Shown here one piece after another: positions 30,981 through 45,096 of a stretch of DNA of 64,000 nucleotides. The notes under the pieces were generated by a model, which worked only from the letters and a program-made list of their open reading frames with translations, ran no database searches and had not been told where the DNA came from. The stretch's first letter is position 1. Each line of letters starts with the position of its first letter. Origin of the DNA: Thermobaculum terrenum ATCC BAA-798 (lineage in GTDB: Bacteria; Chloroflexota; Chloroflexia; Thermobaculales; Thermobaculaceae). The position numbers and the translations under genes are program-made. The stretch spans positions 248,001 through 312,000 of the forward strand of contig NC_013525.1 of the NCBI RefSeq assembly GCF_000025005.1, given 5' to 3'.

Positions 30981-31934
30981 ATGGCTATGCTAGGTATATT
31001 GCCAAAGGGCAAACTTGCCCGTCGCGAAGCTCTCTGGTTTTGGTTCTTTATATCTCCATGGGTCTTTGGTTACTTAGTGTTTACTCTGGGTCCCATATTA
31101 GCGTCCTTTTACTTGAGCCTCACCAGGTACAATATTGCTTCTCCGCCTAAATTTATTGGTCTAGCTAATTATCAGCTATTACTACAAGATCCCATTTTTT
31201 GGAAGTCACTCAAGGTATCAGCTTATTACACCTTCTTGAGTGTGCCGCTAGGAATATTCTTCTCTCTAATGCTGGCAGTACTACTAAACCAAAAAGTGCC
31301 AGCATTAGGCGTATTTAGGACTTTATTCTATTTGCCTGCAATTCTGCCTGCCGTAGCAGCCACATTATTGTTTGTTTGGCTACTTAACCCTGATTTCGGA
31401 ATCGTAAATTATGTCATAAGATCACTGTTTGGCACCAATGGTTTGATCCCACTCGGCTGGAATGGACCAGATTGGCTAGGGGATCCTAAATGGGTTATCC
31501 CTTCCTTCACGCTAATATCGCTATGGGGTTTCGGCGGTCCCATGCTTATCTACCTATCAGCGCTTCAAGGAGTTCCCACGCAGCTCTATGAAGCTGCCAT
31601 TATAGATGGCGCGGGTAGAATCAAGCGTTTCTGGCACATAACTATTCCCATGATATCCCCAGTGATTTTGTTTACCTTCATTACTGGGATTATAGGGTCC
31701 TTCCAGGTGTTTACACAGGCCTGGGTAGTCAATGGAGGTACGGGAGCACCGGACTATTGGTCAATGTTCTATGTATTGTATCTCTTCCTTAATGCCTTCC
31801 GTAGATACAGGATGGGGACTGCAGCTGCACAAGCATGGCTACTTTTCCTGGTAATACTTGCACTAACCATTTTGTTCCTATGGGCTTCTAGGCGATTTGT
31901 CTACTACGAGACTTCTGAAGGTGGAAGGTTCTAA
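30981..31934 (+). CDS. Sugar ABC transporter permease (MalF/UgpA-type)
   Basis: 317 aa, six membrane helices. The EAA motif reads YEAAIIDGAGRIKRFWHITIPMISP (about residue 212), the site that docks the ATPase. Two permeases and a binding protein form this importer, while no ATPase gene is present, suggesting a shared MsmX-like ATPase encoded elsewhere. The regulated promoter at 30883 precedes it. Substrate is a carbohydrate by family; the nearby sugar-acid genes make a deoxy-sugar or polysaccharide breakdown product possible (inference). Confidence 0.9.
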   Translation: MAMLGILPKGKLARREALWFWFFISPWVFGYLVFTLGPILASFYLSLTRYNIASPPKFIGLANYQLLLQDPIFWKSLKVSAYYTFLSVPLGIFFSLMLAVLLNQKVPALGVFRTLFYLPAILPAVAATLLFVWLLNPDFGIVNYVIRSLFGTNGLIPLGWNGPDWLGDPKWVIPSFTLISLWGFGGPMLIYLSALQGVPTQLYEAAIIDGAGRIKRFWHITIPMISPVILFTFITGIIGSFQVFTQAWVVNGGTGAPDYWSMFYVLYLFLNAFRRYRMGTAAAQAWLLFLVILALTILFLWASRRFVYYETSEGGRF

Positions 31935-31958
31935 GTCCGTCGGAGGGGTGAGAAGCTA

Positions 31959-32882
31959 ATGGCAGAGATAACTACTAGACCAACAGTTGCCAGGCCACAG
32001 GTAAATTTCTGGCAGAACAAGAAATTTCAAGATAGAGCCATCACTATAGGGGCTACTATTCTATGCATAATCGGGGTTATCATAATCCTGTTTCCCGTTG
32101 CATGGATGCTATCAACCGCTCTAAAGACCAGAGCGGAAGTAGCCAGGTTTCCACCTACATGGATACCAGCGGATCCTCAGTGGATAAACTTTAGGGATGC
32201 TCTCTTCTCTACTGAGAACCCATTCCCTACATACTTCAAGAACACTATGTTCTACGCCTTAATGGCTATGATTGGAGAAACACTCTCCTGTGCTTTCATA
32301 GCCTATGGGTTCGCACGCCTCAGGGCTCCGGGAAAGGATATACTCTTCCTGCTGGTACTAGCTACTATGATGTTGCCCTGGCAGGTAACTCTGATCCCGC
32401 AATATGTTATGTTCGTAAAACTTGACCGCATGCACTTTCTTGGACTTGACTGGATAAATAGTTACGCCCCCCTAATTGTGCCCAAATTCTTTGGTAGCTC
32501 CTATCTAATATTTATGTTGAGACAATTTTATAGGGGGTTGCCTAAGGATTATGAAGAAGCTGCCATTATGGATGGAGCAAACTACCTAAATATATGGGCT
32601 AGAATCATATTGCCTCTCTCTAAACCTGCGCTTGGAGCTGTAGCCATCCTAAGCTTCATGTATCACTACAACGACTTCATGGGACCATTGCTTTATATAA
32701 ATGACAACGCAAAGTATCCCGTATCTTTAGGTTTGCAACAGTTCCGAGCACCTTTTGGAGGAACAGCTTGGCATCTATTAATGGCCGCCTCTCTTGTAAC
32801 TGTGTTACCTCCAGTAATAGTCTTCTTTGTGGCTCAAAGGTACTTTATACAGGGCATAGTCATCAGCGGAGTGAAGGGCTAA
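31959..32882 (+). CDS. Sugar ABC transporter permease (MalG/UgpE-type)
   Basis: 307 aa with six membrane helices. EAA motif YEEAAIMDGANYLNIWARIILPLSKP (near residue 205) and the MLSTALKTRAEVARFPPTWIP stretch after TM1 are family hallmarks. Ribosome-binding site GGAGG is 15 bp upstream with GAGAAG nearer. It is the second membrane subunit of the importer and lies 24 bp after the first. Confidence 0.9.
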   Translation: MAEITTRPTVARPQVNFWQNKKFQDRAITIGATILCIIGVIIILFPVAWMLSTALKTRAEVARFPPTWIPADPQWINFRDALFSTENPFPTYFKNTMFYALMAMIGETLSCAFIAYGFARLRAPGKDILFLLVLATMMLPWQVTLIPQYVMFVKLDRMHFLGLDWINSYAPLIVPKFFGSSYLIFMLRQFYRGLPKDYEEAAIMDGANYLNIWARIILPLSKPALGAVAILSFMYHYNDFMGPLLYINDNAKYPVSLGLQQFRAPFGGTAWHLLMAASLVTVLPPVIVFFVAQRYFIQGIVISGVKG

Positions 32883-33010
32883 CACTTCGCTAGAGACTTG
32901 AGAAGGGGGTGATCGATCGGGTTGCCTTCTGCTATGCATATCAAAAGAAAGTGACAACTACGCTGTATAAACCATAAGCCTTCTAATTATTCGAAGGAGG
33001 GGTAGTGTTA

Positions 33011-34543
33011 ATGCCAAAACTCACTAACTGGTATACCAAGTACAAATTTCCAGTTTTGTTTGTGTATCTAATGATAGTAGCGTTGATCATTGCTGCATGT
33101 GGCGGAGGAGCTGGATCTAACACCCCTACTGCATCGCAACCAGCAGCTAGTACAGGCGAGATGGGGGCTAGTAATACCCCAGTTCCAACCATAGTTGCTA
33201 CACCACCTGCCATCGCAAGACAGGCCACAGGCGTTCCAGATATACAATGCAAGCCTGATCAAAAGCAACTAGTGTGGATGGTCCGTAATGGTCCGGTAGA
33301 GAACCAGTGGGAGGCCAATATAGTTCGCCCTGAGTTCCAGAAAGCTCATCCTGAGATATGTCTGAAGATTCTTAGCATAAACCAGGATGATATAGCCGTT
33401 AAGCGCCAGGCAATGATTGCAGCCGGCGAACCTCTACACGTTTGGTCGCCTAACTGGGGTGGTGATGGGTTTGCAAGCGACCGCATCCGTGGTCTAATCG
33501 CTGATCTCACCCCTTTAATTCAAAGGGATAATTTTGATCTTAGTGTGTTTGATCCGAACGTACTCAAGATCTATCAGATAGATGGGAAGACCTGGGCGCT
33601 ACCTTTCCTGACTACAGGATCTTTCGTCTACTACAACAAGGAGCTCTTTGATAAAGCCGGAGTACCATATCCACCTACTAGTTGGGATGATACGAGTTGG
33701 ACTTGGGATAAGTTCATTGCTACCGCTAAAAAGCTTACCAAGAACACCAACAACCTGAACAAGGCACAGTTCGGTGCAGCTAATGGTTTGTGGCCACCTG
33801 TTGATGCTATAGGAGCCCTATGGGGCTATTGGATTATCCCAGACGAAGCTCAACAGACTGGTTTCTCCGATGGTGTACAGGTTGTCAACGATAGAACCAT
33901 AAAGGCCTTCCAGGCAATGCACGACCTGGTATACAAAGATAAGGTTGCTCCTAACAACGCTGCTGTGTCTGCTCTTACACAGTTAGGTGGAGTGTTTGAG
34001 TCTGGACGAGTAGCCATGTTCATGACTGGTGGTTGGGGGCACTGGTCATATCATCCGTTGATAGATGACCCGAACGGCTTCTGCTGGGGTGCAGCGCCTC
34101 TTCCAATGGGTACTCCCGATGCCAAGAGAAGAGCCGTGCTCTTCACGGATCCGTGGGTCATAACAGCTAACCTCTCCCCAGAGGAACAGGATCTCGCCTG
34201 GACCTTCATTAAGTTCCTAGTAAGTGAAGATCAGGCTCGTAAGTATATGGAAGCTACTGGCACTCCCCCAACGCAAACCAAGCTCATGCAGGAGTACTAT
34301 AAGCAGTTCTCCAAGTGCATGAAGCCTGAGGATATGAAGGAAGTGTTTGAGGGTGCGTTCTCTCATGGTAGAGAGTCTTCTAACCACCTGCTGGTGAAGT
34401 TCGATGAGCTAAACCAGATCTGGGACAATGGTCTGGCAACTTTCTGGAACAATCCAAATGCCAAGGCCGAAGATGTCCTGAAGAAGATAGAGCCTCAGTT
34501 CAATAGCGCCCTCAAACGCATCAAGGCTGAAGAAGGTCAGTAG
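33011..34543 (+). CDS. Sugar ABC transporter substrate-binding lipoprotein
   Basis: 510 aa from ATG 33011, with AAGGAGG 10 bp upstream; GTG 33005 is close by. A signal peptide ends in a lipobox (IIAAC near residue 33), then a Ser/Thr/Pro-rich linker and a type 1 binding protein fold (LVWMVRNGPVENQWEANIVRPEFQKAHPEI..., ...ALPFLTTGSFVYYNKELFDKAGVPYPPTSW). CUT1 family. It is the receptor of the operon. A weak 5-bp hairpin (32979-32997) overlaps the ribosome-binding site, which might tune expression. Confidence 0.9.
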   Translation: MPKLTNWYTKYKFPVLFVYLMIVALIIAACGGGAGSNTPTASQPAASTGEMGASNTPVPTIVATPPAIARQATGVPDIQCKPDQKQLVWMVRNGPVENQWEANIVRPEFQKAHPEICLKILSINQDDIAVKRQAMIAAGEPLHVWSPNWGGDGFASDRIRGLIADLTPLIQRDNFDLSVFDPNVLKIYQIDGKTWALPFLTTGSFVYYNKELFDKAGVPYPPTSWDDTSWTWDKFIATAKKLTKNTNNLNKAQFGAANGLWPPVDAIGALWGYWIIPDEAQQTGFSDGVQVVNDRTIKAFQAMHDLVYKDKVAPNNAAVSALTQLGGVFESGRVAMFMTGGWGHWSYHPLIDDPNGFCWGAAPLPMGTPDAKRRAVLFTDPWVITANLSPEEQDLAWTFIKFLVSEDQARKYMEATGTPPTQTKLMQEYYKQFSKCMKPEDMKEVFEGAFSHGRESSNHLLVKFDELNQIWDNGLATFWNNPNAKAEDVLKKIEPQFNSALKRIKAEEGQ

Positions 34544-36957: not shown

Positions 36958-38295
36958 TTACATAGTCTTTCTAGACTGGGATTCGCTTAGAGACCAAACT
37001 ATTCCCGTGGGATATTGATATTGCTCCAGCGATTCCTTCTTCATGGTTATGCTGTATCCTGGCGATGTAGGAGGCATGTAATTACCATTTCTGATAACTA
37101 CTGGATCGACAAAGTGCTCGTGAAGATGGTCAACGTATTCGAGCACTCTGTTCTCAAGTGAGGCGCTCACGTATATGTAGTCAAATATTGATATATGTTG
37201 AACATACTCACACAAGCCCACTCCACCAGCGTGAGGACAAACAGGAATTCCAAACTTGGCTGCCATGAGTAGTACAGCCAGCACCTCATTTACCCCTCCA
37301 AGCCGACAGGCATCAACTTGACAGTAATCAATAGCGTTAGCCTGCATGAATTGCTTGAACATAACTCTGTTGTGACAATGCTCACCAGTAGCTACACCCA
37401 CAGGTGCTATCTCTCTGGCTATCCTGGCGTGCCCAAGAATATCATCCGGACTAGTGGGCTCTTCAATCCATACTGGATTGAATTTGGAAAGCTCCTTCAT
37501 CCAACTTATTGCCTGGTCGACATCCCAGACCTGATTGGCATCCATCATTAGCGCACAATCATAGCCTATTATGTCCCTAATTAGGGATGCACGCCTTATG
37601 TCATCTTCAAGATTAGCGCCCACCTTCATCTTGAAGTGCGACCATCCTTCTTCCACGCATCTCCTGCAGAGAGCCGCAAGCTTATCATCAGAGTAGCCCA
37701 GCCAGCCCGCGGAAGTAGTGTAAGCGGGAAAGCCCCTCTCAAGCATCTCGCGTTCCCTTATGTGCTTAGTGGGTTCATTAGACTTGAGTATTTCAAGAGC
37801 TTCCTGGGGAGTGAGAACATCTCTGATATACCTAAAAGGAACACAGGACACTATTTGTTCTGGGGTCATGTCAACTAACAATTTCCAGAGGGGTTTACCC
37901 TCGGCCTTTGCATATAAGTCCCAGACAGCATTTACCAGCGCGGCAAGTCCCAGGTGTATAGCTCCTTTCTCGGGACCTATCCAGCGTAGTTGGCTATCAC
38001 CAACCAACCTGTACCAGAAGGTACCCATATCCGAAGTTATGTATTCCAGGGTTAGCCCACGTATCAGGTAGCTGAGTGCTTGAATAGCGCTTACCACTAT
38101 CTCATTGCCTCTACCTATGGTAAACGCTAAGCCGTGTCCTTCCAGACCATCAGGGCTATCGGTTTTCAGTATCACATAAGCTGCCGAGTAATCTGGAGAG
38201 GGGTTCATAGCATCAGAACCGTCGAGATTTCTAGACGTAGGGAACCTGATATCATAAGTCTCTATATCAGTTATAGTGACGGACACTTGCGGCAC
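36958..38295 (-). CDS. L-fuconate dehydratase (enolase superfamily)
   Basis: 445 aa, the length of FucD-type enzymes. Mandelate-racemase subgroup residues: Lys pair in HFKMKVG, metal ligands in MDANQVW, IEEPTSP and TGEHCHN, and the catalytic His in CPHAGGVGLCEYVQH. Removes water from L-fuconate to give 2-keto-3-deoxy-L-fuconate. Last gene of a five-gene minus-strand set with an SDR dehydrogenase, a FAH-family hydrolase, a 2-hydroxyacid dehydrogenase and a binding-protein homologue. Substrate is inferred from overall similarity; related sugar acids are possible. Confidence 0.85.
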   Translation of the reverse strand: MPQVSVTITDIETYDIRFPTSRNLDGSDAMNPSPDYSAAYVILKTDSPDGLEGHGLAFTIGRGNEIVVSAIQALSYLIRGLTLEYITSDMGTFWYRLVGDSQLRWIGPEKGAIHLGLAALVNAVWDLYAKAEGKPLWKLLVDMTPEQIVSCVPFRYIRDVLTPQEALEILKSNEPTKHIREREMLERGFPAYTTSAGWLGYSDDKLAALCRRCVEEGWSHFKMKVGANLEDDIRRASLIRDIIGYDCALMMDANQVWDVDQAISWMKELSKFNPVWIEEPTSPDDILGHARIAREIAPVGVATGEHCHNRVMFKQFMQANAIDYCQVDACRLGGVNEVLAVLLMAAKFGIPVCPHAGGVGLCEYVQHISIFDYIYVSASLENRVLEYVDHLHEHFVDPVVIRNGNYMPPTSPGYSITMKKESLEQYQYPTGIVWSLSESQSRKTM

Positions 38296-38335: not shown

Positions 38336-39088
38336 CTATTTAGCCGTCATTCCACCATCAACTACCATGGCCGCGCCTACGATCGATCCGGCCTCATCAG
38401 AAGCCAGGAAGGCTGCCATGGCAGCTATCTCCTCAGGCATCACGAACCTGCCATGAGGCTGCCGTGCTTCCATAGCAGCTCTCGCAGCCTCGGGGTCAGG
38501 GTAATTAGCCGTTATGCGCTCAATCCAAGGCGTCAGAACGGTGCCCGGACAGATGCAATTTATACGCACACCTTCAGATATATGATCTATAGCAGCCGCT
38601 CTAGTAAGAGCCACTATACCCCCCTTAGATGCGCAATAAGCAGCCCTCTCCGGGACACCCACAAGGCCAGCCACGGAGGCAATATTTATTATGGAACCAC
38701 CACCAGAATTCCGTATAGCCGGAATCGCGTACTTCATGCCAAGGAAGGTTCCTTTGAGGTTTATGGCTATTATGCGGTCAAAGTCTTCTTCAGATGTCTC
38801 GGTGGTGGTCGCAGCTACACCCACTCCAGCATTGTTGACCATTATGTCCAATCCCCCCCATTCGTCCACGACATGATTTATAAGTTTATGCACTTCTTCT
38901 GCTTTACTCACGTCAACCCTATAGGGCTTTGTGTTATCACCGAGCTCTTTGGCAACTATTTCTGCAGCTTCCAGATCTATATCAGCTATGACTACTCGGG
39001 CTCCTTCCTGAGCGAATCTGCTAGCAATAGCCTTACCTATCCCTGATCCGGCCCCCGTGACTATAGCCCTCTTACCTTCAAGCCTCAT
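38336..39088 (-). CDS. Short-chain dehydrogenase (2-keto-3-deoxy-L-fuconate dehydrogenase-like)
   Basis: 250 aa classical SDR. NAD-binding TGAGSGIG at 12-19, NNAG, catalytic Ser in IASVAG and YxxxK in YCASK, and C-terminal VVDGGMTAK. In the known non-phosphorylative fucose route the SDR oxidises 2-keto-3-deoxy-L-fuconate to the 2,4-diketo acid for hydrolysis. Its position between the dehydratase and the FAH hydrolase fits that step. L-fucose dehydrogenase activity is an alternative. Confidence 0.82.
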   Translation of the reverse strand: MRLEGKRAIVTGAGSGIGKAIASRFAQEGARVVIADIDLEAAEIVAKELGDNTKPYRVDVSKAEEVHKLINHVVDEWGGLDIMVNNAGVGVAATTTETSEEDFDRIIAINLKGTFLGMKYAIPAIRNSGGGSIINIASVAGLVGVPERAAYCASKGGIVALTRAAAIDHISEGVRINCICPGTVLTPWIERITANYPDPEAARAAMEARQPHGRFVMPEEIAAMAAFLASDEAGSIVGAAMVVDGGMTAK

Positions 39089-39094
39089 GGCTTA

Positions 39095-39937
39095 TCACCT
39101 CGTCAATCTAGTTTTATCTGGTATGGTTATGACTCTATTGGTTAGCTGTATCTCACCCACCCTTACACGAACCTCATCGCCTTCTAGCAGCGTAAAGTCC
39201 TCATCGGGAACGATCCCTGTACCGGTCATCAGAAACACGCCGTAGGGAAAGGACATAGATTTGCCCAGATAGGCCACCAATTCTTTCAGGGTTCTTTTCA
39301 TCTGAGCAGTATTAGTTTCGGCATCAAACACACAGCTGCCCGCTCTGTATATAGTGAGGCGTATATCAATGCTGCTGATCTCTCCCTCAGGGCTTATCTT
39401 GATTCCCCTGCCTATCGCACACGATCTCTCATAAACCTTGGCTTGTGGAAGATACAGGGGATTACTTCCTTCTATATCTCTCGACGACATGTCATTACCT
39501 GCAGTGTAACCCACTATCTCCATTTGGTTATTGATCAACAGCACCAATTCAGGTTCGGGAACATTCCAGGCGCTGTCAGACCTTATGCCAACAGTACCCT
39601 CATCACCAACTACCCTCCAGCCAATGGCCTTAAAGAACAATTCAGGTCTTTCTGCATCGTAGACATCATCGTATATATCACCCCTCTCGGACTCAGCCTT
39701 TCTTGCCTCGCGGCTTCTTAGGTAAGTCACCCCACTGGCCCAGACTTCTTGATTAGGTTCTATAGGGGCCAATATATGTCCATCAGCTTCTTGACCTGTG
39801 GACAGGCGGTAAAGCACCTCTTGTAAATTGGCGGCAGGAACCTGCATGAGCATCTCTAGTTTGAATGCCCTAGGCATATAGTATCCATCAAGGGCCCACC
39901 TAGGGCCGTCATCATCCCAATGTCGTGTAAGGATCAT
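39095..39937 (-). CDS. Fumarylacetoacetate hydrolase-family protein (probable 2,4-diketo-3-deoxy-L-fuconate hydrolase)
   Basis: 280 aa. Typical FAH core: metal residues in [40 protein letters not shown] and the following [22 protein letters not shown]. Splits diketo acids at a C-C bond with Mg2+. Position next to a fuconate dehydratase and an SDR suggests release of pyruvate and lactate from the diketo-fuconate. A simple FAH of another sugar acid is possible. Confidence 0.8.
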
Positions 39938-39953: not shown

Positions 39954-40928
39954 TCAGCTTGATCTTTCTACTGGCATCACTACTGGATATAAAGGACTGC
40001 CATTCTTCAGAAAGGCTACTACATTCATGGCCCATTTATATCTTAGTTCCTTCTCGGACTCCTCAGAGTACCAAGCCACATGAGGAGTGATTATGATCTT
40101 TGGGTGATGGATAATGGGATCTCCAGCTACAGGAGGTTCCTTAGGTAGCACATCTAGAGCTGCACCTGCCAGATGACCGCTATCCAGAAAGTATATTAGA
40201 TCCTCCATATTCACCAGCCCACCACGAGCAGTATTTACCAGGTAGCTTCCAACGGGCATCAGGGCAAGAAACTCTCTGTTGACCATGTTGCTCGTTTCTT
40301 TCGTTAGCGGCAGGTGTAAAGATACCACGTTACTCTTCATGAATAGATCTCTTAGATCTACTCTGTCAACGCCCTCTGGCCATGCGTTAGCAGGCAGATA
40401 GGGATCATAACCTATGACTCTTCCAAAAACATGCAACATCATGCTGGCCAGAGTTCTACCTATTCTGCCTAGGCCAACAACCCCCAAAGTTAGACTACTT
40501 ATCCTGTGAATCTCCCCGGTCGAAAGGTAGTGCCATACCCCTTCCCTAACTTTCCTATCTAGGAAGCATACATGCCGCAGTAGGGACAAAATCATTGCTG
40601 CTGCATGCGACGCTACCTCGTGCACACCATAATCAGGCACATTGGCCACCCATACGCCTTTCTCCTTAGCTGCATCTAGGTCAACACTATCCACCCCCAC
40701 CCCTGCCCTGCTTATTAACTTCAAATTAGGTAAGGCATGGATGACATCAGAAGTTATTGGAGCATACTGTACCATTAGCGCGAAAGCATCTCTAGCGGCT
40801 AGAATGACTTCTTCCGGTAACCTGCACTGAGCAATAGATACTTGACACCCTGCTTCTTCCAGCAAGCGCTGCTCGTCCGAGAGATCTGGATATTCTGCAT
40901 CTGTTATAAGAACTTTATAGACGGACAC
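39954..40928 (-). CDS. D-isomer 2-hydroxyacid dehydrogenase family protein
   Basis: 324 aa. NAD motif [12 protein letters not shown]; catalytic Arg in NTARGGLVN, Glu in PKEPPV and His in [12 protein letters not shown], as in SerA/CtBP-type dehydrogenases. Reduces 2-keto acids or oxidises D-2-hydroxy acids with NAD(H). Within the sugar-acid set it may act on a sugar-derived 2-keto acid or lactate (inference). The end of the binding-protein homologue lies 2 bp upstream. Confidence 0.85.
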
Positions 40929-40930
40929 CC

Positions 40931-42094
40931 TTAAGACTCTCCTCTGGCCGCAGCTGATCCCTCTTTGTTTATGTTCTCAAGAGCTTGGTCTACGTCTATA
41001 TTCCCAATAAGCGCTTGTCTGACGTTCTGCCAGATAACGTCTTCAACAAATGGATAGTTTTTGTGTTTAGGCGGTAACAAGGCGAATTTGCTAGTTTCTT
41101 CCAGTAATGACCATCTTCTGCTCTGTAAGGTACCAGGTTCGCATTCACTCTCTGCATCTTCAAGAGAGTCCTGCCTCGCAGGCAAAGTCCCAAACCTGGC
41201 CTCAAAAGCCTGCGACTCTCGAGATGTTAGAAAACGCAGGAGCTCGACAGCAGCCGCTCTATCCTTTACTGTGACAGGTATGGCAAAGGTATGGCTGCTA
41301 GAGTAAACCTTGCGCCCAGCTACGCCTTGAGGATACATAGACAGGTCATACTTACCTACTATCTTGCTCAGTTTGGGATCTTCGTAAGTATAAAAGCCTC
41401 CAGGCCAATCGGTACTCATCGCCGCTAATCCCTCTCGAAAGCACTGGGCTACTTCGTCATAATGCCAGTCTGGAGTTTGTGGTGGAGCAGCTCGGGTGTA
41501 AAGATTCTTCAGCAAAGTGATAGCCCATTTGGAAGCCTCAGTAGTAGCATTTGGTTCTGGCAGTTCAGGATTGGGGAAAAGATTACCTCCGGCCATCGCA
41601 GTCAACTCGAAAAAGTGGCCGAATAACCCAGATTCCTTCCCAGGGAAGACAAAGCCATAGAAATCTTCCTTTCTAAGCGCCACCGCAAGCTCGTACAATT
41701 CTTCCCATGTTCTAGGAGGGGTACTTATCATGTCCGATCTGTAGTGTAGTAACTTGACGTCAAGATTCCTGGGTATACCATAAAGCTCCCCATTAATTCG
41801 TGCTAACTCCAGGGTCATGGGATTGAACTTAGAGAGTTCATCTATAGACCATACATCATCCACTGGGGTAAGCCACTGCATCTGACTTGGAGCATACTTA
41901 GTGTGGGTGGATATCAGGTCGTAATCTGCAGTACCCTCACTAAACTCCCTAGCAATCGTCCTGTTAAGCTCCGGATGAATAAGGGTGGCTACTATCTCTA
42001 CCTTGATGTTGTGAGCATCCTCGAACTCCCTAAGGCGTGTGTAAAGAGGATCATACATGGGCCCACCCACAAACAATACTCTCAAGGTCTGCAT
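40931..42094 (-). CDS. Substrate-binding-protein fold without signal peptide
   Basis: 387 aa. Pattern of a type 1 (CUT1-like) sugar-binding protein: LRVLFVGGPMYDPLYTRLREFEDAHNIKVEIVATLIHPE..., then ELARINGELYGIPRNLDVKLLHYRSDMISTPPRTWEEL. The start ATG has GGAGGGGG just upstream, and an in-frame TAA lies six codons before it, so no hidden signal peptide exists. It begins directly with the fold and has no lipobox. First gene of the sugar-acid set, divergent from an aldo/keto reductase. A cytoplasmic sensor or binding role is an inference. Confidence 0.78.
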   Translation of the reverse strand: MQTLRVLFVGGPMYDPLYTRLREFEDAHNIKVEIVATLIHPELNRTIAREFSEGTADYDLISTHTKYAPSQMQWLTPVDDVWSIDELSKFNPMTLELARINGELYGIPRNLDVKLLHYRSDMISTPPRTWEELYELAVALRKEDFYGFVFPGKESGLFGHFFELTAMAGGNLFPNPELPEPNATTEASKWAITLLKNLYTRAAPPQTPDWHYDEVAQCFREGLAAMSTDWPGGFYTYEDPKLSKIVGKYDLSMYPQGVAGRKVYSSSHTFAIPVTVKDRAAAVELLRFLTSRESQAFEARFGTLPARQDSLEDAESECEPGTLQSRRWSLLEETSKFALLPPKHKNYPFVEDVIWQNVRQALIGNIDVDQALENINKEGSAAARGES

Positions 42095-42192
42095 TTTCCC
42101 CCTCCAAACTTATCTCTAGATATATTCCCGCTAATTGGATTATCTTATTGATTGTCCGGTTTCTGGTCAAATTCTAAAACGGAGGCGATGCA

Positions 42193-43161
42193 TTGGAGAA
42201 GCAGCAAACACTCCCTCTAAGGCCATTGGGTAGTACAGGATTACAAGTTACGCCGATATGTGTGGGCTGTGCAGAGCTAGGCAACATGCCAGAGACTTTT
42301 GCCTATTCGGTAGAAGAAGAAATAGCCCTGCAAACTATTAGGGAAGCATTCAAAAGCCCAATAAATTTCATGGATACAGCTGCAGCCTATGGAGACGGTG
42401 AGAGCGAGCGGCGTATAGGTATCGTTATAAGAGAGATGGGCGGACTCCCACCAAACTACGTGCTGGCAACTAAGGCAGATCGTAACTTACAGACAGGTGA
42501 CTTTAGCGGAGAGCAGATCAAGAGATCTATAGAGAGAAGCCTAAATTTATTGGGGCTGGATAAACTCCAGCTCGTATACCTGCATGATCCTGAGCACTCT
42601 ACGTTCGAATACATAACATCGAAAGGCGGAGCTATTGATACCCTAGTGGCTTATAAAGACCAAGGGGTCATTGAACATATAGGCATCGCGGGCGGACCTA
42701 TTGACATGATGATACGTTACGTAGAGCTAGATGTGTTTGAGGCTGTAATAACTCACAATAGATATACCTTGATCAACAGAAGTGCTGAACCATTGATAGA
42801 CCTCGCCCATAAGAAGGGCTTGGCAGTTGTAAATGCAGCTCCCTATGGCAGCGGTATACTTGCCAAAGGGCCAGATGCCTATCCTAGATACGCCTACCAA
42901 GAAGCCCCTGACAAGATATTGAATAGAGTAAGAGTTATAGATGAAGTTTGTAAGAGATATGGCGTGCCGATAGCTGCTGTGGCTCTTCACTTCTCTCTAA
43001 GGGATCCAAGAATAACATCCACCATTGTTGGTATGAGCAAGCCTGAAAGAATTAGGCAAACTATAGACCTAGTAAACACTCATATACCTGCAGGGGTCTG
43101 GGAAGAACTTGAACCTCTAGATTATGATACAGAGGATCCTGAAGCAAACAGATGGAAGTGA
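42193..43161 (+). CDS. Aldo/keto reductase (L-fucose/D-threo-aldose dehydrogenase-like)
   Basis: 322 aa. TTG start at 42193 with ACGGAGG about 7 bp upstream; ATG 42188 is out of frame and stops at once. AKR features: FMDTAAAYGDGESERRIG (Asp and Tyr), LATKAD (Lys), LQLVYLHDPEHS (His) and a C-terminal STIVGMSKPERI. Most like the subgroup that oxidises L-fucose or D-threo-aldoses to the lactone, the first step of a non-phosphorylative route. The lactonase that would follow is not in the window. Confidence 0.85.
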   Translation: MEKQQTLPLRPLGSTGLQVTPICVGCAELGNMPETFAYSVEEEIALQTIREAFKSPINFMDTAAAYGDGESERRIGIVIREMGGLPPNYVLATKADRNLQTGDFSGEQIKRSIERSLNLLGLDKLQLVYLHDPEHSTFEYITSKGGAIDTLVAYKDQGVIEHIGIAGGPIDMMIRYVELDVFEAVITHNRYTLINRSAEPLIDLAHKKGLAVVNAAPYGSGILAKGPDAYPRYAYQEAPDKILNRVRVIDEVCKRYGVPIAAVALHFSLRDPRITSTIVGMSKPERIRQTIDLVNTHIPAGVWEELEPLDYDTEDPEANRWK

Positions 43162-43213: not shown

Positions 43214-44053
43214 ATGATGAACAATCGGATATCCTGTCATCTCATTACCTGGGGGAACGATCTATTGACAGGCATGAAGGAGGCCTCAGAGTTAGGCTTC
43301 CAAGCTTGCGAGACTTTTACTCACCAAGCACTGGAATACGAAAACAGGGTAGAGGAATTTAGGGAACTTCTAGGATCTTATGATCTGGAGCTGTCGGCTC
43401 TGTATGGAGGTGGTAGATTCAGTGATCCCTCCAAAGAGGCAGAAGTCATTGCCTATAACACTCGAGTAGCGCAGTTTCTATCGAAGTTAGGCGTTGACCG
43501 CATTGTATTTGGCCCAGGAGGACCTAGGGAAGGCAAGACCAGCCTTGAAGGACTGAAGCAAATGGCAAAGACAATCAACGAAGCTGCCAAGAGAACGTAC
43601 GACTTAGGGGTGCTTGCATGCGTGCACCCACATTTAGGTACTGAGCTTCAGGATGAAGATGAGCTCGATGCCGTAATGGAGATGACAGACGACAGATACG
43701 TCTTCTTCTGCCCTGACACGGCTCACCTGACGGCTGCGGGTATGAATGCGGCAGAGATCATAAGAAGATACGGGAACAGGATGAGATACATGCATCTTAA
43801 GGACCTAACCCCCGAGAATCCTGATCCGAGCGTATTCACAGCTTTCTCTGGGACGGAAGCTTTGCCTATATTTTGTGAGCTAGGGCTCGGGACGATCGAT
43901 TTTGTTCCGATAATGCAGGCGCTACAAGACGTAGGATACGATGGATGGCTTACCGTGGAGATTGACCAGTCAACCAGTACTCCCTACCAAAGTCTGAAGC
44001 AGTGTCGAGACTTCGTGCAAGATAAACTTGGAATATCTATAAGGTACAGGTGA
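43214..44053 (+). CDS. Sugar phosphate isomerase/epimerase-like TIM barrel
   Basis: 279 aa AP-endonuclease-2/xylose isomerase-like barrel. Metal-binding pattern: LSALYGGGRF, CVHPHLGTEL, PDTAHLTAAG and MRYMHLKDLTP, with a final Glu in VEID. Relatives include IolE-type inosose dehydratases and various epimerases. It lies between the aldo/keto reductase and a Gfo/Idh/MocA gene, which suggests carbohydrate conversion. Exact reaction unknown. Confidence 0.82.
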   Translation: MMNNRISCHLITWGNDLLTGMKEASELGFQACETFTHQALEYENRVEEFRELLGSYDLELSALYGGGRFSDPSKEAEVIAYNTRVAQFLSKLGVDRIVFGPGGPREGKTSLEGLKQMAKTINEAAKRTYDLGVLACVHPHLGTELQDEDELDAVMEMTDDRYVFFCPDTAHLTAAGMNAAEIIRRYGNRMRYMHLKDLTPENPDPSVFTAFSGTEALPIFCELGLGTIDFVPIMQALQDVGYDGWLTVEIDQSTSTPYQSLKQCRDFVQDKLGISIRYR

Positions 44054-45096
44054 TCGATATGAGCTTCAAGATAGGCATAATAGGCTGCGGCAGGATCGTG
44101 GAGGAGGGGCATGCACCAGCACTAAGTAATATGAGGCATGTTGCTGAGGTGGTAGCCCTGGCGGATCCTAGCCCTGAGCGACGGGCAACTATAGAAAATG
44201 TCCTCAACTATAAAGTAAGTGGGCAATATAGCTCCTGGAAAGACCTACTAGAGAATACGCCAAATCTGGATGCAGTACTTATAGCCCTCCCGCATCACCT
44301 CCATGAACCGGCTATCACAGATGCAGCTAGATTTGGCGTGAATGTGATATCTGAGAAACCTTTGGCTGCCACATTGGAGGAGGTCGATCGTATAGGAGCA
44401 GTCATTAAGGAACATAACGTAAAGCTGGCAGTCATCCATAATTACACTTACAGCCGCCCCATGAGATATGCTCTAAGAGCAATTCAGGAAGGCCGTGTAG
44501 GAGAGGTATTTCTTGTGAGGAGTGAGGGTCTTGCCGGTAGTCACTACAAGGGCAAGGATCCTTCTAATCCCGACTGGAGAACGCAGTCCACAAGAGGTGG
44601 GGGCGGTGTGCTCCTGGACAATGGTTACCACAACATGTACGTAGCAGAAGCGGAAGCTCAAAGCCCAGTAATAAAGGTCTACGCAAGGGTCGGGCGTTAT
44701 GTACGAGAGCAAGATGTGGACGATCTTGCTGTAGTGATGCTCACCCATGAGAACGGCGCTACTACCGTAGTTGAAGTAGCTTGGGCGGTCAATGGAGGTG
44801 GAGCATTCGTACATGAAGTACATGGAAAGCTCGGTAGTATAAGATTCAAGATAGAAGCACCATTTGTCGAGATATATGAAAACAAGATAGGACAATGGCT
44901 GCCTCTAAGCTATGCCGACGATAACTTCCAAGAGGGTTTTCATGGTGTGCTACAAGATATATTCAACGCCTGGGCACAAGGCGAGGACGCTCCCACAAAT
45001 CTAGCCAAGGCAAGGCATAATCTAGCTATTCTCAGGGCTGCATATCTATCGGCTCAGCAGGGAACTGTCGTAGATCTCAAAGACGTAGAGCGCTAA
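44050..45096 (+). CDS. Gfo/Idh/MocA-family oxidoreductase
   Basis: 348 aa from GTG 44050 (start-stop overlap GTGA with the previous gene), or 345 aa from ATG 44059. Rossmann motif GIIGCGRIVEEGHAPAL at the N-terminus, catalytic Lys in EKPLA near residue 115 and the C-terminal GFO/IDH C-domain (GLAGSHYKGKDPSNPDWRTQSTRGGGGVLLDNGYHNMYVAEAEAQSP). NAD(P)-dependent sugar oxidoreductase. End of the plus-strand three-gene set, followed by a perfect palindrome. Confidence 0.87.
   Translation: MIDMSFKIGIIGCGRIVEEGHAPALSNMRHVAEVVALADPSPERRATIENVLNYKVSGQYSSWKDLLENTPNLDAVLIALPHHLHEPAITDAARFGVNVISEKPLAATLEEVDRIGAVIKEHNVKLAVIHNYTYSRPMRYALRAIQEGRVGEVFLVRSEGLAGSHYKGKDPSNPDWRTQSTRGGGGVLLDNGYHNMYVAEAEAQSPVIKVYARVGRYVREQDVDDLAVVMLTHENGATTVVEVAWAVNGGGAFVHEVHGKLGSIRFKIEAPFVEIYENKIGQWLPLSYADDNFQEGFHGVLQDIFNAWAQGEDAPTNLAKARHNLAILRAAYLSAQQGTVVDLKDVER

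Follow-up and report, generated by a model that had tools for sequence, protein, structure and literature searches.

The window analysed here, a stretch of 64,000 nt from a 3.1-Mb genome in two contigs, carries a gene for a signal-less CUT1-type solute-binding protein of 387 aa (positions 40931–42094, minus strand). The gene heads a same-strand run of five, bearing out the first-pass annotation, which had called it the leader of a catabolic operon. Two base pairs 3′ of it lies a PGDH-like 2-hydroxyacid dehydrogenase (39954–40928), followed on the same strand by a FAH-family hydrolase/dehydratase (39095–39937), an SDR dehydrogenase with 40% identity to the SDR of alphaproteobacterial L-fucose loci (38336–39088) and, as the last gene, an enolase-superfamily protein (36958–38295). 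This last product is by similarity an L-fuconate dehydratase, with 63% identity to an annotated one and a match of 3e-172 to FucD (1yey); the solved FucD entries that it matches are Xanthomonas-type. No permease gene is present in the operon.

A divergent unit on the plus strand begins with an aldo/keto reductase, a candidate aldose 1-dehydrogenase (42193–43161), and continues with an IolE-like TIM-barrel protein (43214–44053) and a Gfo/Idh/MocA oxidoreductase (44050–45096). Between the two units, a sigma-70-like promoter match (TTGACC-17-TAAGAT, 42142–42170, minus strand) is weak and not above shuffled expectation. About 6.4 kb from the binding-protein gene, on the opposite strand, is a separate CUT1 importer (30981–34543, plus strand) made up of a permease pair and a lipoprotein-type binding protein that has a signal of its own.

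Together, the predicted L-fuconate dehydratase, SDR, FAH-family enzyme and candidate aldose dehydrogenase would provide the set for non-phosphorylative L-fucose (D-arabinose) catabolism. Because the nearest solved relative of the FAH-family protein is 2-keto-3-deoxy-D-arabinonate dehydratase (2q18), the pathway may act on L-fucose, on D-arabinose or on both, and its route may be of the dehydratase type instead of the diketo-deoxyfuconate hydrolase route.

Start, fold and conservation of the signal-less protein

The start of the gene is fixed by its own sequence. The letters leading into the ATG at 42094 read AGA TAA GTT TGG AGG GGG AAA ATG, placing a strong ribosome-binding site, GGAGGGGG, just 5′ of the start and an in-frame TAA six codons upstream (42095–42115, minus strand). 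The first beta strand begins after only four residues, and no N-terminal export signal was found in the start, upstream frame and N-terminus, consistent with the cytoplasmic location that had been proposed. The CUT1-like pattern noted at first pass is likewise intact: matches to PF13416 (1.1e-23) and PF01547 (6.5e-20) span almost the whole length and lie well above the curated cut-offs (84.9 bits versus 27 and 72.8 versus 26, respectively). The nearest solved structures are MalE3 (6dtq, 1.4e-21) and TMBP (1eu8, 2e-21). A structure prediction from the window protein and its orthologue L018 only reached a pLDDT of 44. The host genome contains eight binding-protein matches, all others being 25–28% identical to the window protein.

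Orthologous signal-less loci number 19 and occur in Chloroflexota and one other phylum, that of L018, which a genome-contig scan found at 56% identity to the window protein. A relative at E ≤ 1e-30 is present in 14 of 400 Chloroflexota genomes; further members of this group and of an exported group came from profile searches, and genome-wide sampling covered Chloroflexota and the phylum of L018. The profile scores fall into two groups, 478–677 bits for signal-less and 210–306 bits for exported proteins; the model holds eight signal-less rows, with other signal-less members (for example, G473, G689, G699 and G788) outside it, and absence of a signal was no criterion for inclusion. No genome in the profile searches had listed members of both groups. 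The protein is patchily distributed, in 3 of 158 genomes of the window's own class and 7 of 43 of L018's phylum, which suggests horizontal spread. A scan of viral contigs returned no relatives, and a plasmid search with two queries gave nothing closer than 31% identity, its matches all being distant proteins of exported type or other binding proteins.

The lack of a signal is a property of the whole clade. At their likely starts, the proteins of the 19 loci begin 3–13 residues before strand 1, and 14 of 18 members have an in-frame stop no more than 47 codons from the GGPxY anchor (residue 10 of the window protein). In the remaining four (L018, L081, L083 and L085), all in high-GC DNA, the upstream frame is open and strand 1 is immediately preceded by an ATG. 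A hydrophobic stretch occurs upstream in L081 alone (12-residue mean 2.1); it sits about 45 residues ahead of strand 1, and an arginine-rich segment follows it. In the nineteenth orthologue, L103, the frame is likewise open upstream, and none of 157 codons there is a start codon. An export signal is absent in 19 of 19 orthologues. The clade is under purifying selection: dN/dS is 0.08–0.14 across six proteins from genus g51 and 0.13 for L082/L084.

These observations bear on whether the protein is simply a decayed or mis-annotated binding protein, whose signal was recently lost or whose start was wrongly called. Wrong starts do occur among relatives: in the exported fucose-type L034:8965–10218, the annotated start lies inside the signal sequence and removes a clear signal, the upstream frame reads MKHFVTGASAGVIALAIGAGSAMAQ, and by annotation alone the protein looks signal-less. 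The artefact is real in that case but does not account for the window gene. In-frame stops directly upstream, conservation of the clade in two phyla and a dN/dS of about 0.1 refute this reading, and we give it almost no credence.

An exported sister clade with its own transporters

Exported forms were sought among relatives and found only in a separate sister clade, 27–31% identical and with its own transporter genes. Its 14 rows carry Sec, Tat (SRRxFLK) or lipobox signals and serve ABC transporters of L-fucose type. In a tree without distant outgroups, the 19 signal-less and 14 exported rows are split at 100/100 support, leaving the window protein on the other side of this branch from the L-fucose-type exported clade. 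With outgroups, the groups still fall on one side each (support 72/99 and 91/97), but where the root lies is uncertain; loss of the signal, giving a cytoplasmic from an exported protein, is for this reason the likely and not the proven direction of change.

Permease genes follow exported members in every locus where the contig continues. Five alphaproteobacterial exported-type loci carry mutarotase, SDR, FAH, MR and L-fuconate dehydratase genes, and those of Chloroflexota carry mutarotase and L-fucose isomerase-type genes. Two further arrangements were seen around such loci. In Chloroflexota fucose-type ABC loci, L090:1904–4681 (also G502, G547, G558, G672 and G680) encodes tandem-fused double binding proteins of about 925–950 aa, in which a single lipoprotein signal precedes two full SBP domains. 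Adjoining the alphaproteobacterial L-fucose locus is a further signal-less protein, a very divergent SBP_bac_8 member that lacks its own permeases (L034:5776–6906 and L035:5828–6964), beside a CaiB/BaiF CoA-transferase gene (plus MaoC in L035), which may be another cytoplasmic binding-protein family.

By contrast with the exported members, no signal-less gene in any readable orthologous locus has a permease directly 3′ of it; linked permeases have been lost. The earlier claim that no permease genes accompany the gene stands for the operon and fails for its surroundings, since the window has a separate ABC importer not far off, as do about half of the orthologous loci. The protein could then still take part in import, leaving the cytoplasm by a non-classical route and docking to an ABC transporter encoded elsewhere, such as the CUT1 permease pair about 6 kb away. 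We regard this as very improbable. Nine signal-less loci (L018, L019, L027 and L079–L084) carry a separate ABC system, but with its own exported binding protein, as the importer in the window also has; L103 holds a permease pair. None of the 19 lineages has a signal, no permease follows any of the genes, and we know of no route by which folded binding proteins without a signal are exported.

Binding-site residues and gene company

Columns identical in the signal-less and exported groups include G11, Y14, H64, R109, D112, E163, W230, H268 and R307, so that the conserved frame of the ligand-binding site (H64, R109, D112, E163, W230 and H268) is kept in the window protein. D112 and W230 align with Asn134 and Trp259 of LpqY, and H64 with the position of Asp80 (LpqY) or Asp70 (TMBP). 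Asn134 and Trp259 of LpqY contact trehalose and matter for binding (PMC7949145).

Against this shared frame, two charge differences are fixed. Position 66 is Lys in 18 of 18 signal-less proteins versus Ser in 14 of 14 exported ones, and position 114 is Lys or Arg (18/18) versus Ser (14/14); L103, the nineteenth, also carries both. K66 lies two residues from H64 and K/R114 two residues from D112, placing both, we infer, at binding-site or cleft positions. A first manual alignment had put K66 at MalE Asp65; the profile alignment instead puts H64 at Asp70/Asp80 and K66 two residues on. Other fixed differences in the signal-less proteins (exported residue in brackets) are N44 (Asp), Y67 (Phe), Q71 (Tyr), P151 (Ala), S155 (Glu), G156 (Ala) and Y264 (Trp). 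Cysteine content does not separate the clades.

The proposed association with fuconate and related sugar-acid enzymes extends from the operon to the orthologous loci, although gene neighbourhoods differ between lineages and no single regulator gene is conserved across them. In the window, L019, L020 and L103, an enolase-superfamily sugar-acid dehydratase (L-fuconate dehydratase or related MR) stands directly next to the binding-protein gene or within its gene run. Of the two features suggested for relatives, absence of the signal is general and a dehydratase neighbour is found in part only; other loci have lactonases or hexonate or uronate enzymes instead. L020 also has a galactarate/altronate-type dehydratase and a Lar_N protein, L021-type loci an SMP-30 lactonase, and L027 a hexonate epimerase and UxaE. 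L080–L084 encode an aldo/keto reductase, 60–64% identical to that of the divergent unit in the window, and an SDR. E1-type dehydrogenases occur at L018, L027, L081, L083 and L085, and fucosidase-type hydrolases, GH95-like and GH29 (alpha-L-fucosidase), at L085 and L103. L019 has a GntR-FCD regulator immediately upstream, and L103 has one a short way upstream of its fucosidase gene.

This constant company of enzyme genes is one reason to weigh a different role, our main rival explanation: that the protein is a cytoplasmic CUT1-fold enzyme of the sugar-acid pathway, acting for example in mutarotation, lactone opening or epimerisation. Fixation of Lys66, Asn44 and Tyr67 throughout the clade fits an enzyme, whereas conservation of the binding-type residues does not favour one. 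MqnA/MqnD and THI5 provide a precedent as cytoplasmic enzymes with periplasmic-binding-protein-like folds, but they belong to other clusters, and to our knowledge there is no enzyme in the CUT1 cluster. Of 17 genomes with the signal-less protein, 13 lack the rhaM mutarotase family, whereas 5 of 5 exported-type genomes checked have it at the locus; this pattern is confounded by relatedness, as 12 of the 13 rhaM-less genomes come from one genus and one phylum (the comparison set G000, the G683 group and g51 against G490, G651, G613, G459 and G497). Replacement of a mutarotase is suggestive at that level, and for lactone opening, lactonases already stand beside the signal-less gene in g51 loci. 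On balance we consider an enzyme unlikely.

The ligand might also be uncharged, namely the neutral sugar L-fucose, or else a sugar phosphate, with the protein as its cytoplasmic buffer or sensor. The sister clade is linked to L-fucose transport, L-fucose isomerase-type and FGGY kinase genes occur at some signal-less loci, and the host genome encodes at least two alpha-L-fucosidase genes; FGGY genes are, however, absent from the window locus. The two fixed Ser-to-Lys/Arg changes and the loss of Glu (S155 versus E) favour an anion over a neutral ligand; the positive pocket would fit a phosphorylated sugar too. This reading appears to us no more probable than an enzyme.

A putative intracellular receptor and its relation to known systems

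The explanation that we prefer, at roughly even confidence, is that the protein acts in the cytoplasm as a receptor for a fuconate-like sugar-acid intermediate, serving as a sensor or regulatory partner or as a buffer. It would have arisen from, or share a common ancestor with, exported L-fucose-type CUT1 solute-binding proteins, losing the signal sequence and the transporter partnership and keeping the two-lobed fold and binding-site residues. Because two additional positive charges are fixed at positions of the binding site, the most likely ligand would be an anionic pathway intermediate: L-fuconate, 2-keto-3-deoxy-L-fuconate or a similar aldonate. Closure on this ligand would signal to a partner, either a pathway enzyme or a regulator, or the protein would buffer the intermediate. 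Cytoplasmic location in vivo, an acidic ligand and receptor or sensor action are what we infer from these sequences.

More tentatively, and across phyla, CUT1-fold proteins may have been recruited to the cytoplasm as a dedicated aldonate receptor or as an enzyme of deoxy-sugar catabolism, a role undescribed for this fold cluster. The open-access literature yielded no account of cytoplasmic or signal-less sugar-binding proteins like this clade; one may exist elsewhere. Annotation pipelines label such genes extracellular solute-binding proteins and count them as parts of transporters, whereas the whole clade appears to act inside the cell with a re-charged pocket. The window protein is of the CUT1 family by sequence but should not be called an ABC substrate-binding protein, because it lacks two defining features, the signal and the linked permeases. 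If our preferred explanation is true, the clade shows an importer protein turned into an intracellular metabolite receptor or enzyme, offers a testable two-residue signature (K66 with K/R114) and would correct transporter predictions for Chloroflexota and related uncultured lineages.

A precedent for a binding-protein domain at work in the cytoplasm as a sensor is the SgrR/DsvR family, in which an SBP_bac_5 domain is fused to an HTH (PMC13060122). That family belongs to another binding-protein cluster and has an N-terminal DNA-binding domain, whereas a domain search of the 387 aa of the window protein found SBP_bac domains only and no DNA-binding domain. Thermotoga MalE3 and Thermococcus TMBP align over most of the length; they differ in being exported transporter proteins for alpha-glucosides. 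Also close are the exported L-fucose-type CUT1 proteins (Thalassospira, Sinorhizobium pSymA, Ruegeria and Roseibium, and Chloroflexota lipoproteins), which have the same fold, align full-length from strand 1 and share the six-residue binding-site frame and the same catabolic gene company, but which differ in their Sec, Tat or lipobox signals, their linked permeases and their Ser at 66 and 114, Trp at 264 and Glu at 155.
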